Assembly: GCF_000178835.2 (NCBI RefSeq)
Contig: NC_015275.1
Span: forward strand, 3,997,001 to 4,061,000
Direction of reading: 5' to 3'
Length of the DNA stretch: 64,000 bases
Source: Cellulosilyticum lentocellum DSM 5427
GTDB lineage: Bacteria > Bacillota > Clostridia > Lachnospirales > Cellulosilyticaceae
In this document: positions 1 to 12,629 of the stretch, piece after piece
Numbering within the stretch: the first letter of the stretch is position 1
Layout: each line of letters opens with the position of its first letter
The notes under the pieces: generated by a model
Told to the model about the DNA's origin: nothing
Database searches by the model: none
Seen by the model: the letters and a program-made list of their open reading frames with translations, nothing else
Made by a program: the position numbers and the translations under genes

Positions 1-584
1 GCTATATCTTTCTCTGCTTTTTTTATTTTTTCTGTATAGCTTGCCTTATTCAAATTCACCTGTTTTAGGTCTATCTCCTCGTTTTGACTATCGATTATCT
101 GGCTCCTTTTTAGAGTCTCAAAATCTTGTTCATACTGGATGTACTTTTGTACATAAGCTTCATCATGCTCACTATTAAAGCTATTTACGCTACTTTCAAT
201 ACTTTTCTTCAAGGTTCTTAGATTGTCTAATATCTTCTCTTGTTCGCTTATCACTTCTTGTAACTGTAATTTCTTTACTTCCTGCTCTGCACAGTCAATT
301 GTTACTAAGACATCTCCAGCTTTTACTCGTTTTCCCTCTTGCAAACTGCTACTATTAACAACTCCACCTGATTTATTTCTTATAATACTTAATTGTTCAT
401 TGGGTCTAATCATGCCCCTACCCTTAGATACAATATCAATCTCCCCATAATACATCCATATAATAGCTGCCACAACTATTCCTATCAATAGTCCGATAAA
501 AATGGCAAAGAAGGGATTAGGTTTGGTCTCATAGAGTTCTTTACTATCTGATAACTCATTTATATTTTTAATAATGGCTTTCAT
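1..584 (-). CDS. HlyD-family export accessory protein (C-terminal part outside window)
   Basis: This is the first ~194 codons of a membrane-fusion (HlyD/LcnD-like) protein that would link the ABC exporter to the outside. One membrane segment is visible around residues 25-47, in a region beginning ETKPNPFFAIFIGLLIG. A lipoyl-like half motif follows (SGGVVNSSSLQEGKRVKAGD), then a Lys/Glu-rich coiled coil running off the window edge. Its ATG at 584 overlaps the exporter stop codon by one base, so the two are translationally coupled. Family knowledge: such proteins act with C39-peptidase ABC transporters in exporting double-glycine peptides. The 3' end lies outside the window, so completeness cannot be judged. 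Confidence 0.85.
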   Translation of the reverse strand, partial: MKAIIKNINELSDSKELYETKPNPFFAIFIGLLIGIVVAAIIWMYYGEIDIVSKGRGMIRPNEQLSIIRNKSGGVVNSSSLQEGKRVKAGDVLVTIDCAEQEVKKLQLQEVISEQEKILDNLRTLKKSIESSVNSFNSEHDEAYVQKYIQYEQDFETLKRSQIIDSQNEEIDLKQVNLNKASYTEKIKKAEKDI

Positions 585-2761
585 TAGTTTACCTCCCCCA
601 CTTCTAATCCTGATATTTGTTCTCTCCATAAGGATGCATATCTACCACCTATACTTACTAGTTCCTTATGTGTCCCTGTTTCTACGATTCTTCCTTTATC
701 TAATACGTAGATGCGATCACATAATTTAATAGTACTTAATCGATGTGCAATAATAATGGTGCTCATGGACCGACTTAGCTGTCTAATAGTAGATTCTATA
801 GCTGCTTCGGTAATTGAGTCTAAATTACTAGTAGCTTCATCTAAAATTAAAATATTAGGCTTCTTTAATATAGCCCTTGCTATAGCTAGCCTCTGCCTCT
901 GACCACCTGATAAGTTGGCACCATTCTCATCTAGAAGTGTTTCATATCTTAGTGGAAGTTCATTGATAAAATCATGTGCTTTAGCCATCTTGGATGCTTC
1001 TACTATTTCTTCCATACTGATACGCTCTAAACCTAGGGCTAGATTTTCCATAATTGTCCCACTGAATAAAAAGGTTTCTTGTGGGACATAAGCAATCTTG
1101 GTTCTAAGGACCTCTTTTTTAATATCTAGGATATTATTGTTGTCTATTAATATTTCACCTTCTTCTAACGGGTATAAATTAAGTAATAGTTTGGCTAAAG
1201 TCGTTTTACCCGAACCACTTTCTCCTACTAATGCAATTCTTTCTCCTGGCTTAATCTCTAAATTAATCTCTTCTAACACGTTCTGCCTTTGGCCATATTT
1301 AAAAGTGACATTTTTATAAGAAATTTCTCCCTCTAAATGCTTTGGCTCCATCTTTCTAGATTCTTCTTCTCCATTTTCTATCTCTAAATCTAAGATTTCA
1401 CCTAATCGCTCTGCTGCAACCATAGCTGTTTGAAGCTGAGGTTGTAAATTAATTAAATTTTTAATAGGATTTAAAAAATAAATGAGTAATGAATTATATG
1501 TAATTAAATTACCTACGGACATATCTCCTTGAAGGACTTGATTGGCACCAATCCATAATATGACAACGCCTCCAAGTAATTCTATTAAGCCTTTAAAAAA
1601 GCCTTGCAAGTTCGTCGTAAAACTTAGTTTGAAGATACTTCTTAGTAGCTTAATGAATTTTGTTTCTGTTTCTATCCCTACTTTTTTCTCTGCATTAAAG
1701 ACCTTAACGGTTTGAATACCATTTAGTGACTCCACCATGTACGAAGTAAGTTGTGCGTTATTTTCCATGGTAGCTTTATTGCCCTTCTTCAAGGTTTTAT
1801 TAAAACTCACTACTACCACGCCATAGAGCAGAGCGACCACTAAGGTGATTCCAAACAGTAGCGCATTTTGCATATATAAAATAATGCCTCCTACTATTAC
1901 CATAATCGTGTCGATCATTATGGTTAGCGTTGCTCCTGATATAGCATCTCTTACATGCCCTGCATCTTGAAACCTAGAAATAATCTCACCTACTCTTCTT
2001 GTCCCAAAAAAGTTCATAGGTAATTTTAGAATATGCTCATAATAACCTAATAATAGAGCTATATCTAATTTCTGGCTCAAAAAAAGTAATAAGTGGGACC
2101 TGAATAAACTAAGTAGCATCTGAAAAGTGTAAAGTATTAGAATGCCAATGGATAGGATATTTAAAGTTTTGGACATATTATAGGGCAAAATATCATCTAG
2201 TAAAAATTGCATATAAAATGCTCCTAATATGCCTAATGCTGTATAAAGAAGTGATGCCGCAAATACTTGTAGCACAATACCTTTTTGTGGCTTAAGTAAA
2301 TGAAGAAAACGCTCAAATAAGCCCTTTGTTTCCTTTCCTTTCTTAAATTCACTGGTTGGCACTAATAAAATAAGCACCCCAGACCATATACGAGTAAAAT
2401 CTTCAAAGCTATAAGTCACTATACCATCTGCTGGGTCTGCTATGATGATTTCATGCTTAGTGATCTTGTGCACAACGACATAATGCATTAAGCCTCCTTC
2501 CTTAATCACATGAGCTATTGCTGGCAAAGGAAACTCACCTAATAATGCTTCTGGTTCACCCTTAACCCCCTTAGCACTAAATCCCAACTTTTCAGCTGCC
2601 TCTAACATACCTGCTACATTAGTTCCTTCTGTGTCCGTCCCTGCTGCTTCCCTAATTTTAGTAATAGGTGTACTGAGTCCATATTGCTTACAAACTGTTG
2701 CTAAGCATGCTGCTCCACAGTCTGTCATATCGTATTGCATGATACAATAATATTTCGCCAT
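584..2761 (-). CDS. Peptidase-containing ABC transporter (C39 protease, PCAT) for double-glycine peptides
   Basis: This 725-residue protein has the standard three-part PCAT build. An N-terminal C39 cysteine protease has DCGAACL with catalytic Cys15, His93 (HYVVVHK) and Asp109 (ADPADG). A six-helix exporter domain spans about 160-450. A nucleotide-binding domain has Walker A GESGSGKTT near residue 513, signature LSGGQRQR and Walker B ILILDEAT. Such proteins cut a leader after Gly-Gly and export the mature peptide. A Gly-Gly peptide gene lies just upstream (2925-3062), which strongly suggests the substrate. A hairpin with a U-run lies between the two genes, so expression of the exporter may depend on read-through. 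The SD (AGAGGGG) is close to the ATG. Confidence 0.95.
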   Translation of the reverse strand: MAKYYCIMQYDMTDCGAACLATVCKQYGLSTPITKIREAAGTDTEGTNVAGMLEAAEKLGFSAKGVKGEPEALLGEFPLPAIAHVIKEGGLMHYVVVHKITKHEIIIADPADGIVTYSFEDFTRIWSGVLILLVPTSEFKKGKETKGLFERFLHLLKPQKGIVLQVFAASLLYTALGILGAFYMQFLLDDILPYNMSKTLNILSIGILILYTFQMLLSLFRSHLLLFLSQKLDIALLLGYYEHILKLPMNFFGTRRVGEIISRFQDAGHVRDAISGATLTIMIDTIMVIVGGIILYMQNALLFGITLVVALLYGVVVVSFNKTLKKGNKATMENNAQLTSYMVESLNGIQTVKVFNAEKKVGIETETKFIKLLRSIFKLSFTTNLQGFFKGLIELLGGVVILWIGANQVLQGDMSVGNLITYNSLLIYFLNPIKNLINLQPQLQTAMVAAERLGEILDLEIENGEEESRKMEPKHLEGEISYKNVTFKYGQRQNVLEEINLEIKPGERIALVGESGSGKTTLAKLLLNLYPLEEGEILIDNNNILDIKKEVLRTKIAYVPQETFLFSGTIMENLALGLERISMEEIVEASKMAKAHDFINELPLRYETLLDENGANLSGGQRQRLAIARAILKKPNILILDEATSNLDSITEAAIESTIRQLSRSMSTIIIAHRLSTIKLCDRIYVLDKGRIVETGTHKELVSIGGRYASLWREQISGLEVGEVN

Positions 2762-2799
2762 ACCGCCCCTCTTTTCTACCCCCGGCTATATTTGTACAC

Positions 2800-2848
2800 A
2801 AAAAAAAGAAATACTAATAAAATATTATAATATTTTTATTAGTATTTC
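2800..2848 (-). terminator. Terminator or attenuator between peptide gene and exporter
   Basis: A perfect 13-bp stem, GAAATACTAATAA (2808-2820) with TTATTAGTATTTC (2836-2848), has an AT-rich apex. On the minus strand it is followed by seven U (2801-2807). It would stop most transcripts from the peptide gene before the exporter, giving excess peptide mRNA. Confidence 0.7.
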
Positions 2849-2924
2849 CATTCTTATTTACAGTATTTCGATTAATCTACAATACCCTAACTTAACTATA
2901 TACTTATACGTATTAATCATTTAA

Positions 2925-3062
2925 TTATGGAATAAATATTGATATAAATTCTCTCATCACAGCGCTACAATACGCAAGTGCACCACCTGAAATTTTTTGC
3001 TTCTCTCTCTTAGATAATTCTTTAAAATGCTCTACCTTATTTACTTCTTTAATCTTTTTCAT
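2925..3062 (-). CDS. Double-glycine leader peptide (signal peptide pheromone or bacteriocin precursor)
   Basis: This 45-codon gene has an AGGAGG ribosome site 7 bases before its ATG. The product has a 27-residue charged leader ending LSKREKQKISGG, which fits the LS-x-E-x-I-x-GG consensus cut by C39 proteases. The predicted mature peptide is 18 residues, ALAYCSAVMREFISIFIP, with a single Cys and a hydrophobic tail. It sits between a C39-peptidase exporter and an AgrC/AgrA-like two-component system, the same neighbourhood as ComC/BlpC/PlnA induction peptides. The leader and context are seen directly. The role as a signal rather than a bacteriocin is inferred. The lone Cys could allow disulfide dimerisation or another modification. 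Confidence 0.82.
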   Translation of the reverse strand: MKKIKEVNKVEHFKELSKREKQKISGGALAYCSAVMREFISIFIP

Positions 3063-3107
3063 ATACTTACCTCCTCTTAGATTATTAATATTACCCCTAG
3101 TATCTTT

Positions 3108-3155
3108 AGTATAAGTTATTTGTATTTCACTTCTATTGTATTTGCTTAAAATGTA
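3108..3155 (-). promoter_or_regulatory. Promoter of the peptide gene with direct-repeat elements
   Basis: On the minus strand a TATACT -10 (3113-3108) lies about 46 bases before the peptide ATG and lacks a good -35. Upstream are three similar boxes at 15-16 base spacing: TACATTTTAAG (3155-3145), TACAATAGAAG (3140-3130) and TACAAATAAC (3124-3115). A weak -35 plus phased repeats is typical of promoters activated by LytTR regulators, whose known sites are about two turns apart. The match is only suggestive. Confidence 0.4.
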
Positions 3156-3167
3156 TGTTTTTAATAC

Positions 3168-4481
3168 CTAAGCTGTTACACTATAACTAATAGGTATATC
3201 TATCTCTAAGTAAAACTCCTCTTCTTTACTTATAATATTGATATTACCATTATTTTTTTGCACACTCTTTCTAATATTAGCCAAGCCAAAACCATGATTA
3301 ATACTATCTTTTTTGTTAGTAGGAATTTCTTTCTTATGATCTATCTCCACTCTACCATTAGCAGTATTTTTTATGTTGTAGAACAAATAACCTCGATCAC
3401 AGACTGCTTTCATTTGAATTCTTTTGACTCTACTAGCCTCCACTCTTTCACAAGCCTCTATAGCATTATCTAAACTATTAGCAAATATAACACATAAGTC
3501 CATGTCATCTAGGCCTAACTGCTTACTAAATTTTACTTCGTATTCCATTTGAATATTTTTCTCCTTAGCTATTTGCAACTTATCATTTAAAATAGCATCT
3601 ACAATAGAATGTCCAGTATGAACCATATAATCTAGTCGCTCTGTTGTATTCTCCATTTCTGCAATATATTGCTCTAGCTTATGTAATTCTCCTTGCTGTG
3701 CTAAACTCCTAATAATAATCATATGATTACGCATATCATGCTTGATAGCCCTTGTTTCTTTATTAATCTCTTCTAACTTATGATAATATTTAAATTGCCT
3801 CTCTAGCTGCTCACTCATACATTCATTACTCCATTTATAATAAAGCTTATTCATTTCTTCATTAATTCCTAAAATTAATATAATTATACAAATAAAGAAT
3901 ATTAGGATATAAGTCCCTACACTAATACTTTGCAAGAGCTCAATATCACCAAAGTAAGCTGCATCACATATAAAAAGTGTATACATTGCAGTAATAGTAA
4001 GTAATATAATGGCTAAAGCTTGCCTTCTAGTAACTGTTTTATACTGCCCACTTGCTTTATAAATGATATTACTTTGTTTACCTAAAAACCATAAAATAGT
4101 ACCTTCTAAAGCACATCTTATCTCTGTTACTATTTGATTCTCAAGCCAAGTATGTCCATAGTGTTCTACAATATAGTCAATCAACATCCAATCTAGGGTA
4201 CCTATACCATATATCACCGCAAGGCCTAAAAAATTGACCCAAACCTTATTTAAAAAGGTCCCCTCAAAAAGAAAATTAGCAAAGCAAACTCCAAAGAATA
4301 ATACTCCTGATATAACTTTTTGATGGGTAATGAACATAAATGCACATATTACGCCAACATAAAGTAAATACTTTATAATTCTTTTTCTAGTTAGTTGAGC
4401 TTTATCCAAAAAAGCATTTAAACACATAGATTGCATCACAAAACAGTTTATTAAACCTGCTAGTAAGTCTAATTTATCCAA
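3168..4481 (-). CDS. AgrC-like (HPK10/GHKL) sensor histidine kinase
   Basis: This 437-residue protein has six or so predicted membrane helices in the first ~210 residues, a short coiled coil, then a GHKL kinase core. The phospho-acceptor motif is KHDMRNH with His248. The N box is NSLDNAIEAC, and HGFGLANI is the ATP-lid glycine motif. This is the architecture of peptide-pheromone receptors of the AgrC/ComD/BlpH class. It overlaps the response regulator gene upstream by 8 bases, so they are co-translated. The adjacent Gly-Gly peptide is the natural candidate ligand (inference). Confidence 0.92.
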   Translation of the reverse strand: MDKLDLLAGLINCFVMQSMCLNAFLDKAQLTRKRIIKYLLYVGVICAFMFITHQKVISGVLFFGVCFANFLFEGTFLNKVWVNFLGLAVIYGIGTLDWMLIDYIVEHYGHTWLENQIVTEIRCALEGTILWFLGKQSNIIYKASGQYKTVTRRQALAIILLTITAMYTLFICDAAYFGDIELLQSISVGTYILIFFICIIILILGINEEMNKLYYKWSNECMSEQLERQFKYYHKLEEINKETRAIKHDMRNHMIIIRSLAQQGELHKLEQYIAEMENTTERLDYMVHTGHSIVDAILNDKLQIAKEKNIQMEYEVKFSKQLGLDDMDLCVIFANSLDNAIEACERVEASRVKRIQMKAVCDRGYLFYNIKNTANGRVEIDHKKEIPTNKKDSINHGFGLANIRKSVQKNNGNINIISKEEEFYLEIDIPISYSVTA

Positions 4482-5196
4482 GTCGGTGTGCCTCCTTTAA
4501 ATAGAGACGAAAGCTTTCTTTGAAAGCTTTAATCCTTAGACGACTCATATACACCACATCTCCATTTTGCATGGTTACAGTTGCTTGATCATATTCCTTC
4601 ACATACGCCAAATTAATCAGGTAAGATTTATGAATTCTAAAAAATCCCTTGTCAGCCACGAACTTGTCTACTTCATTAATTTTATTATCTATGATGTATT
4701 CCTTCTGACTTGTAACTGCACGTAATTTTCTATCTACTGTTTCAAAATAAATAATATCCGCAAATGGAATTTGAAAGAATCTCTGTCCTTGATTAAGAGT
4801 GATTAGTTTTGAAAGCTTTTCTTTCCTTTTCTTTAAAATTAAGTCAAAGGTTTTAAAGAGCTGTTCTTTTTGTATCGGTTTTAATAAATATCTAAGTGTG
4901 TTAACTTCAAAAGCACAATGAGCTTCTTCTGGATGGCTAGTTGTAAAGATGATGTCTGCTTTTAAATTTTTCTGACGTATTTTCTTTGCTAATGTTATGC
5001 CATTAATACTGTTTTCTATTTCAACGTCTAAGCAAAATACATCACACTGTTCATAGTTAGCTTTTAAGAGTTCTTCAGCTGAAGAGAAATATTGTATTTC
5101 ATATTGCTTTACACGACTTTTTAAGTACTCTTCTAAAAGCGCTTCTAAATGTTTACGGAAGACTTCTTCATCATCACACACAAAAATCCTGAACAT
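4474..5196 (-). CDS. LytTR-family response regulator (AgrA/ComE-like)
   Basis: This 240-residue protein has a receiver with acidic pocket Asp8/Asp9, phospho-acceptor Asp57 (CLDVE) and Lys106 (LLKPI). A LytTR DNA-binding domain spans about 135-235 (FFRIHKSYLINLAYV, SRLRIKAFKESF). An AGGGGGAGG-type ribosome site lies just before the ATG. It is first in the two-gene unit with the GHKL kinase. LytTR regulators bind paired direct repeats upstream of pheromone and bacteriocin genes, so the likely targets are the peptide promoter and the exporter genes in this locus. Confidence 0.93.
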   Translation of the reverse strand: MFRIFVCDDEEVFRKHLEALLEEYLKSRVKQYEIQYFSSAEELLKANYEQCDVFCLDVEIENSINGITLAKKIRQKNLKADIIFTTSHPEEAHCAFEVNTLRYLLKPIQKEQLFKTFDLILKKRKEKLSKLITLNQGQRFFQIPFADIIYFETVDRKLRAVTSQKEYIIDNKINEVDKFVADKGFFRIHKSYLINLAYVKEYDQATVTMQNGDVVYMSRLRIKAFKESFRLYLKEAHRLG

Positions 5197-8858: not shown

Positions 8859-8878
8859 TATTCTTCCTCCTTTTAGAG

Positions 8879-8912
8879 TATAATCTCGGCAACCTAAGTT
8901 ACCGAGATTATA
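8879..8912 (-). other. Intercistronic hairpin between GH48 and GH9
   Basis: An 11-bp perfect stem TATAATCTCGG/CCGAGATTATA (8879-8889, 8902-8912) has a 12-base loop that can extend by three pairs. It sits just upstream of the GH9 ribosome site, with no U-run after it. It therefore looks like an mRNA processing or stability element rather than a terminator. Confidence 0.65.
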
Positions 8913-8952
8913 TTGAAATTAGTATATTAAACTTTAGGGGATTTGATTTTGA

Positions 8953-12534: not shown

Positions 12535-12562
12535 ATTATAATTTCATAAATTTAATTATCAA
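12535..12562 (-). promoter_or_regulatory. Promoter of the GH48-GH9 unit
   Basis: The minus strand shows TTGATA (12562-12557), a 16-base spacer and TATAAT (12540-12535), a good sigma-A promoter. It leaves an untranslated leader of about 175 bases before the GH48 ATG. The intergenic region 12352-12683 contains this promoter, the leader and the neighbouring terminator, and no other gene that I can see. Confidence 0.55.
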
Positions 12563-12629
12563 TTCATATTGAATATAGTGTAGGTAATCCATACATAAGT
12601 TGCATAAGTATTTATTCCCATGCTAACAA

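Follow-up and report, generated by a model that had tools for sequence, protein, structure and literature searches.

A ComC/Blp-type peptide circuit probably re-used for plant-wall enzymes in Cellulosilyticum lentocellum

Introduction

The pneumococcal ComABCDE system joins a peptide, a C39 peptidase-ABC exporter (PCAT), a sensor kinase and a LytTR response regulator in one circuit, the output of which is competence. Here we describe a locus of Cellulosilyticum lentocellum DSM 5427 with the same four parts, in which a double-glycine open reading frame (ORF) of 45 residues lies between the kinase and an exporter that matched the ComA structure 8hf7. It was found in a stretch of 64,000 nucleotides, here called the window (NC_015275.1, positions 3,997,001 to 4,061,000; C1:3997001-4061000), of a genome that forms a single contig of 4,714,237 bases (G000). 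The comparison covered 24 genomes of the family, among them the relatives G005 and G017, and 344 genomes of the order. Taken together, the data indicate that the locus is probably a ComC/Blp-type quorum circuit that is re-used for plant-wall enzymes.

The gallocin system GSP-BlpHR, of the streptococcal Blp type, likewise consists of a secreted peptide, the kinase BlpH and the LytTR regulator BlpR, and one conserved motif lies just upstream of the -35 at several of its operons; the output in the available sections of that report is a bacteriocin, whereas the sites described here precede plant-wall enzymes (PMC8545106). Unlike the Blp type, the window peptide fails the ComC family cut-offs. In Lactobacillus plantarum, the autoregulated plantaricin operon PlnABCD carries tandem repeats just upstream of -35/-10, the sites of PlnC and PlnD. 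In the available text this system differs from the window in its repeat (TACGTTAAT as against ACAnnTTnnG) and in its bacteriocin output (PMC2714321).

A signal peptide has also been described in a cellulolytic member of the Clostridia, namely AgrD of C. thermocellum. Unlike the window peptide it is a cyclic lactone, linked by the authors to xylose inhibition, and the available part of the report names no cognate receptor and claims no enzyme control (PMC5322536). In Cellulosilyticum ruminicola H1, the LytTR gene Crum_2623 is linked to the cellulase genes Crum_2624/2625 (endoglucanase and cellobiohydrolase), a gene order that fits the window and G005. Relative to 0.5% cellobiose, filter paper raised Crum_2623 1.5-fold and xylan 11.5-fold, and on cellulose 33 cellulases, a scaffoldin and two mannanases were induced. 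The strain showed no serial growth on filter paper unless passed through cellobiose. The authors explained induction via the cellobiose dose and suggested that the LytTR protein has a part in inducing cellulases; their main text, as available, uses none of the terms quorum, two-component and response regulator (PMC5733062). The three common systems named in the accessible part of a review on hemicellulase control are hybrid two-component systems, ECF sigma/anti-sigma pairs and catabolite repression, and peptide quorum sensing is not named there (PMC10766802). A paper on rumen bacteriocins does not mention Cellulosilyticum in its available text (PMC13289728), and among the literature matches listed (titles and abstract beginnings) there was no report of a double-glycine pheromone controlling cellulases.

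Results

The genes of the locus are arranged on the minus strand. A GH48 cellulase gene with CBM3 (12351-8953) and a GH9-CBM3 cellulase gene (8858-5463) are followed by the LytTR regulator (5196-4474), the GHKL kinase (4481-3168), the double-glycine ORF (3062-2925), the C39-ABC exporter (2761-584) and its HlyD partner (from 584 past the window end). After HlyD come a CorA-type transporter and a protein of 1339 residues with BNR, CBM_X2 and CBM3 modules. We call the latter GH74-like, a name read from the BNR repeats and CBM3; no GH74 model matched in a Pfam scan. The placement of the peptide gene between the kinase/LytTR pair and the exporter with HlyD, as given in the original prediction, was borne out, and all neighbours were matched by domain models. 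GH48 is present in 2 of the 24 family genomes (G000 and G005), each time beside the kinase-peptide system.

The peptide gene itself (2925-3062, minus strand) had also been predicted, and at the level of sequence we regard it as confirmed. The 45-residue ORF has GGAGG 7 nt ahead of its ATG, its leader (2982-3062) ends in HFKELSKREKQKISGG, and the presumed mature pheromone (2928-2981) is ALAYCSAVMREFISIFIP, with the 18 residues and the single Cys that had been foreseen. It is the only ORF of at least 30 residues lying wholly inside the kinase-exporter gap on that strand, and no second double-glycine gene was seen beside it in the ORF listing around the locus. The ComC models match the leader below their cut-offs (NF033214: E 8.4e-4, 18.9 bits, cut-off 50; PF03047: 13.5 bits, cut-off 20.4). 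Of 5947 ORFs of 30-80 residues in 1.33 Mb of C. lentocellum DNA, 9 show the leader pattern (hydrophobic residues at -15, -12 and -4 plus Gly-Gly), compared with 14 of 8164 when the DNA is Markov-resampled, so that the motif alone is not above chance and its statistics were dropped as proof of the gene. With the motif at chance level and the ComC models below threshold, the case for the peptide rests on comparison. A search of 59 genomes with the peptide only was also set aside (14 genomes with a match at E<=1; own copy 6e-25, next 0.05); because the peptide is too short and variable, we worked from the kinase neighbourhoods. What speaks for the gene is where it lies, its ribosome-binding site, the repeat in its promoter and the equivalent placement of such ORFs at three other loci.

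A kinase profile search of the 24 family genomes gave 39 matches, 30 of them with loci. The four best kinases (at least 309.7 bits) are that of the window, its paralogue in the same genome (locus L066) and those of G005 and G017; three of them served to build the profile, and the next match reaches 191.6 bits. All four are followed by a double-glycine ORF, with cut sites, as read by eye, at KISGG/ALAYCSAVMREFISIFIP, KAGG/VTRKFFSVINECIREIFG, KVIGG/ARAKFYRKERAAVKKIAGW and NISGG/EEKRRVGGVVCSVVYAVYNLVTGSNA; the G005 peptide has no Cys. The original prediction would have been undermined by relatives keeping kinase and exporter without any Gly-Gly frame, and it withstood this comparison, although the G005 exporter lies at another place. 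The clade is narrow: with at most 4 candidates scored per genome and a threshold of E<=1e-65, it was seen in 3 of the order's 344 genomes. Among more distant kinase loci, AgrB adjoins the kinase in 10 of the 10 tested, which had been chosen for an AgrB-sized ORF beside the kinase, the rest of the loci being listed only. Contigs scanned with the kinase yielded five loci. In one of them (L102) a double-glycine ORF adjoins the kinase; in Lachnotalea and at three other kinase loci no convincing one was seen, and the match in L105 was overlapping and out of frame.

The promoter of the peptide gene contains a direct repeat, ACAGCTTAGG-12-ACATTTTAAG (3145-3176, minus strand, overlapping the kinase stop codon), which we predict to be the regulator site for autoinduction. 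Exactly 31 bp past the repeat lies a -10 box, TATACT (3108-3113, minus strand), and the same 31 bp are found in three promoters of L102 (record CALJNR010000072.1, G017), which read ACAT.TT..G or close, 12 bp, a second copy, 31 bp and TATAMT. The window repeat agrees at 12 of 12 fixed positions, and repeat plus -10 was matched by none of 300 shuffles. The exact repeat with an 11-12-bp gap has three matches in the whole C. lentocellum genome (control pattern: 1). Only that of the window has a -10 at 31, and the other two were set aside for lack of the layout. At L066, the pheromone promoter carries a similar repeat, with a gap of 11 bp, and that of G005 has a repeat (11 of 12) with the -10 at 31 missing. 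The promoters of the window regulator and exporter showed no site (225 and 297 of 300 shuffles as good).

Three models were used for finding further sites. R1, a sequence model of 72 positions, was built on the three L102 sites together with that of the window; it includes no G005 sites, and the L066 site was left out because its promoter aligned with bad gaps. R2 was built from 17 G017 sites, the window pheromone site and the G005 site before GH10, and a matrix of 26 columns was derived from the 17 G017 sites only, so that the C. lentocellum genome was not in its training. In this matrix, the window pheromone site scores 24.3 bits, the best of all C. lentocellum DNA scanned.

In C. lentocellum, R2 found the full layout at E<=1 (best 150 of 9633 candidates) only at the pheromone promoter, a training site, and at the promoters of GH74-like (21.9 bits, E 1e-3) and GH48 (16.0 bits, E 0.07 per genome). 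None of the 113 control matches listed runs from position 2 or lower to position 69 or higher, that is, across both half-sites and the -10. The predicted GH48 site (12535-12603, minus strand) reads GCAACTTATG-12-ACACTATATT-31-TATAAT with a weak second half. Its score of 9/12 plus 6/6 was equalled by 6 of 300 shuffles, this being one of 22 regions tested, and the site was not listed by R1. The GH9 gene behind it has no site of its own, and its upstream gap scores at chance. R1 gave 11 other matches in this genome, all weak; of the nine loci read, most lay inside genes, and these matches were set aside.

The matrix, applied to 554 kb, placed the window pheromone site first, followed by GH74-like (23.4 bits), L205 (20.6), GH48 (17.75) and L216 (15.75). 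L205 and L216 were unexpected matches from evenly spaced background stretches. They stand before a GH26-CBM35 enzyme (mannanase) and a secreted CBM2-ricin-lectin protein, the GH30 match of which is below threshold (20.1 vs 23 bits). In the next 800 kb, the match before an enzyme is at a GDSL esterase-CBM2 promoter (20.67 bits); just below 14 bits follow the promoters of a PPIC foldase (12.8) and of a CBM3-X2-cohesin scaffoldin (12.74), which is the only cohesin match in the genome. In total, the background scan covered 80 stretches, 1.6 Mb or 34% of the genome, besides chosen loci. Among 749 promoters in this 1.6 Mb, five have a match of at least 12 bits: four belong to enzymes or the scaffoldin and one to the secreted PPIC foldase. 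An enzyme label was carried by 8 of the 749 genes with their own promoter region, four of them with a site. By comparison, permuting the half-site columns (200 matrices) produced 117 promoter matches, two of them enzyme-labelled, and no run had two or more of the latter. If 3% of genes were such enzymes, which is an assumed value, the probability of at least four of five would be about 4e-6. Across 621 genes, the seven with CBM modules scored higher (Mann-Whitney p 0.012; Fisher at >=12 bits 3e-5), but this comparison was set aside, as GH74-like and GH48 in it are not blind. Control loci of other genomes (156 kb) had four matrix matches of at least 9 bits, all within ORFs, the best at 11.3. 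As a separate observation, a match of 11.7 bits at L285 (9811) lies 25 nt before a 262-residue ORF, by eye apparently a KduI-type isomerase of pectin catabolism.

G005 is the only other genome with GH48 among the 24, and it has the same order GH48-GH9-regulator-kinase-peptide. No exporter is present at this locus; one lies at L068, with bacteriocin-like genes. The top-ranked R1 site of G005 lies 28 nt before a GH10-CBM4_9 xylanase ORF. With chosen loci included, the top three matrix scores in this genome are those of the pheromone (13.2), GH10 (13.1) and GH48 (11.9) promoters. Moreover, the scaffoldin promoter, a target chosen before inspection, reads ACATTTTATG-12-ACATTATAAG, with 11 of 12 positions and TATAAT at 32. 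Behind the G005 peptide gene (L069 8843-10609) there are kinase-like ORFs, one with a sub-threshold GHKL match, that look like decaying duplicates.

In G017, no GH48 match was found. R1 identified 19 sites there, including the three building sites. Nine have a double-glycine ORF within about 400 nt, counting the pheromone ORF, and a tenth (L155) is doubtful. Three precede Rce1-type membrane proteins (four proteins of this type were confirmed at the G017 site loci), and one precedes a DUF5085-like gene that is itself adjoined by a double-glycine ORF. The remaining sites are followed by other small ORFs, membrane-like or unclear in kind, or by the end of a contig. Most of the sites thus serve double-glycine peptides and genes that are likely to confer immunity, which suggests that G017 has a bacteriocin regulon of the Blp/Pln type. 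A site is also found ahead of a small-peptide ORF upstream of the G017 regulator. This regulator and the kinase are separated by about 13 kb (L148 2353-3102 and 15944-17437), and a site and a double-glycine ORF precede the regulator, unlike the kinase-regulator pairs of the window, L066 and G005, which are adjacent. The same locus (L148 4282-9303) contains radical-SAM genes and double-glycine precursors in which LYGI or TGI(I/V) repeats abound; the same promoter type precedes at least one copy, and the products may be repeat-type ribosomally synthesised and post-translationally modified peptides (RiPPs).

The sensor kinase (3168-4481, minus strand), the presumed pheromone receptor, has a hydrophobic N-terminal half and a GHKL ATPase domain (PF14501, 5.4e-23). 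Simple hydropathy indicates several membrane segments in the sensor half, with peaks at about residues 44-68, 163 and 197. Against its three relatives the window kinase is 14-21% identical in the N-terminal and 38-41% in the C-terminal half; across all six pairs the ranges are 14-24% and 35-43%. Such fast N-terminal and slower C-terminal divergence is as expected of pheromone receptors. The response regulator (4474-5196, minus strand) consists of a receiver (PF00072, 5.2e-15) and a LytTR DNA-binding domain (PF04397, 8.8e-23); it is 57% identical to that of G005, 42% to that of G017, 35% to its L066 paralogue and 26% to the Agr regulator of its own genome.

The exporter (584-2761, minus strand) is a PCAT by TIGR01193 (705.8 bits, cut-off 523.85). 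Its closest solved relative is 4ry2 (E 4.1e-247), which we take to be PCAT1 of Clostridium thermocellum, a protein reportedly known from structural work. The alignment with 4ry2 retains the peptidase segments TDCGAAC, histidine and ADP, presumably the catalytic ones. The 5' part of the HlyD partner (1-584, minus strand; PF13437, 61.5 bits, cut-off 22.2) continues past the window (L017 16055-17629). With this exporter, the GHKL kinase and its fast-evolving N-terminal half, the LytTR regulator and the repeat before the peptide gene, the likeness to ComCDE, Blp and Pln systems claimed originally was upheld.

Between the pheromone and exporter genes lies a hairpin with a T run (2808-2849, minus strand), a possible partial terminator. 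The fold of 2795-2880 has -18.3 kcal/mol (z -4.30), and none of 200 shuffles was equally stable; the hairpin is absent from the output of a consensus terminator scan, which demands G-C pairs. The gap between GH48 and GH9 (8859-8952) contains the inverted repeat ATCTCGGTAACTTAGGTTGCCGAGAT, which may serve in processing or attenuation.

The paralogous system at L066 (7426-18764; C1:119426-130764) comprises a LytTR regulator, a kinase, a 49-residue double-glycine ORF, a DUF5085-like gene, cerein-like double-glycine genes, PCAT, HlyD, TraB, radical-SAM/SPASM genes and three more double-glycine ORFs. It is an apparent bacteriocin/RiPP cluster. DUF5085-like proteins recur at double-glycine clusters (L066 10008-10484, L068 8472-8963, L102 3718-4233); two of these three proteins were compared with Pfam, both matching below the cut-off, and the L102 gene has its own regulator site. 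Elsewhere in the C. lentocellum genome, a third C39 exporter lies with a 68-residue double-glycine peptide weakly matching TIGR04149 (L067 9632-12789).

Discussion

We observed the genes of a four-part peptide circuit, their conservation, the promoter repeats and an enrichment of these repeats before genes for plant-wall degradation. From this we infer how the peptide would be cleaved and sensed, which regulator would bind, in which direction it would act and that cell density would matter. In the proposed mechanism, the 45-residue precursor would be made at a basal level, cut after Gly-Gly and exported by PCAT and HlyD. The 18-residue peptide would then build up outside and be sensed by the membrane half of the kinase, which would phosphorylate the LytTR regulator. 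The regulator is predicted to bind the direct repeat (10-12-10), which ends 31 bp ahead of the -10 box, and to activate the pheromone gene, giving positive feedback, with read-through past the hairpin into the exporter gene; owing to the hairpin, short pheromone transcripts would be abundant and those of the exporter fewer. The putative output set comprises GH48 (with GH9), GH74-like, the GH26 mannanase, the esterase-CBM2, the GH30-like CBM2 protein and the single scaffoldin.

Several results weigh against this reading. In C. lentocellum, the matrix gave 15 matches of at least 12 bits in the 1.6 Mb, and 20 permuted matrices gave 3-26; of the 15, eight lie inside ORFs and two have no gene behind them. 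A prediction set down beforehand, for matches of at least 14 bits, was put to the next 800 kb, which returned five, of which one precedes an enzyme, three lie within ORFs and one is geneless. The last 400 kb held no promoter match of at least 12 bits. Four of the eight labelled genes have no site (a CBM3-X2 protein directly behind the GDSL esterase, a GH9, a GH10-CBM3 and an esterase-CBM2), and by the matrix the GH9 in L160 has none either. The enzyme label was built with the hit proteins among its queries, so that enzymes with unrelated modules stay unlabelled. R2, with the best 150 candidates per genome scored, missed L205, L216 and L246, and it reached 21.0 bits in 8 control genomes, as against 21.9 for GH74-like; bit scores alone are therefore not decisive, which led us to the matrix trained on G017 only. 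In G005, the GH48 promoter is weak (13.7-14 bits, below several partial matches), the scaffoldin site has only 8.8 matrix bits, a low score due to the shifted -10, and 400 kb of other DNA held no matrix match of at least 12 bits. Finally, the inducers studied in C. ruminicola were, in the available text, substrates and not density (PMC5733062).

An alternative is a pheromone system whose output in C. lentocellum is a bacteriocin, either the 18-residue peptide or those of L066, with the enzyme sites being coincidental. The homologous system of G017 has a bacteriocin regulon, and L066 encodes a cerein-like double-glycine peptide (TIGR03949, 28.2 bits, cut-off 21.5). In addition, the region before the L066 radical-SAM-linked double-glycine genes was equalled by just 6 of 300 shuffles, like GH48. 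That region has only 2.6 matrix bits, however, the three other L066 bacteriocin-like promoter regions are at chance (280-295 of 300 shuffles), the window peptide has no further double-glycine gene beside it, and the promoter matches in the 1.6 Mb are mostly enzymes. We consider this alternative unlikely. Of the two outputs first envisaged, an inducible bacteriocin suits the relative G017; in the window genome, the sites in the 34% and the chosen loci scanned mostly point to the other, a community trait, in the form of plant-wall enzymes.

The enzyme sites might instead belong to the paralogous L066 regulator with its own 49-residue peptide, which would still be peptide control of enzymes. The L066 and window regulators resemble the G017 regulator, on whose presumed sites the matrix is based, to about the same degree (40% and 42%; last 110 residues 43% each), so the L066 regulator could bind the enzyme sites, and its pheromone promoter carries a related repeat. 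The gap of that repeat is 11 bp, though, and the enzyme sites have 12 bp, as in the window; the window system has GH48, GH9 and GH74-like as neighbours, and its G005 counterpart has GH48-GH9. The chance of this explanation appears similarly small, if anything a little smaller.

It has a still slimmer prospect, in our estimation, that the regulator controls the enzymes in response to a sugar or wall fragment sensed by the kinase, the peptide being a by-product or modulating its own export only. The C. ruminicola study, in its available parts, ties induction to cellulose, xylan and the cellobiose dose (PMC5733062). Yet Pfam found no sugar-binding domain in the window kinase, a peptide ORF adjoins all four clade kinases, and nothing else in the C. 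lentocellum DNA scanned scores as high in the matrix as the pheromone promoter. An Agr-type thiolactone system with a cyclised Cys is very improbable: the kinase resembles AgrC (NF046015, 41.9 bits, cut-off 500), but no AgrB-like protein was seen among the ORFs surrounding the locus (listing; main genes by Pfam), which has a C39 exporter instead, the G005 peptide lacks Cys, and a true AgrB locus with LytTR regulator and kinase lies elsewhere in the genome (L071 7395-10185; PF04647, 120.7 bits).

Overall, we return to re-use of a ComC/Blp-type circuit for plant-wall enzymes as the favoured reading. With somewhat less assurance, we lean towards the further view that the circuit was rewired in Cellulosilyticum-type cellulolytics, from a bacteriocin-type promoter architecture to the scaffoldin and enzymes, so that cellulose digestion would be licensed by cell density. 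Since the cellulases that cells release are a public good, their control by density is an old expectation, for which a candidate signal, receptor, switch and sites can now be named. If the reading is true, a regulator site that serves bacteriocin operons in one genus would have come to serve enzyme genes in a related one. A density threshold would then explain the failure of C. ruminicola in serial transfer on filter paper, as far as the available text describes it (PMC5733062), and the circuit would offer a possible handle for biomass conversion. Cells of these bacteria may thus signal to each other before investing in cellulose digestion.

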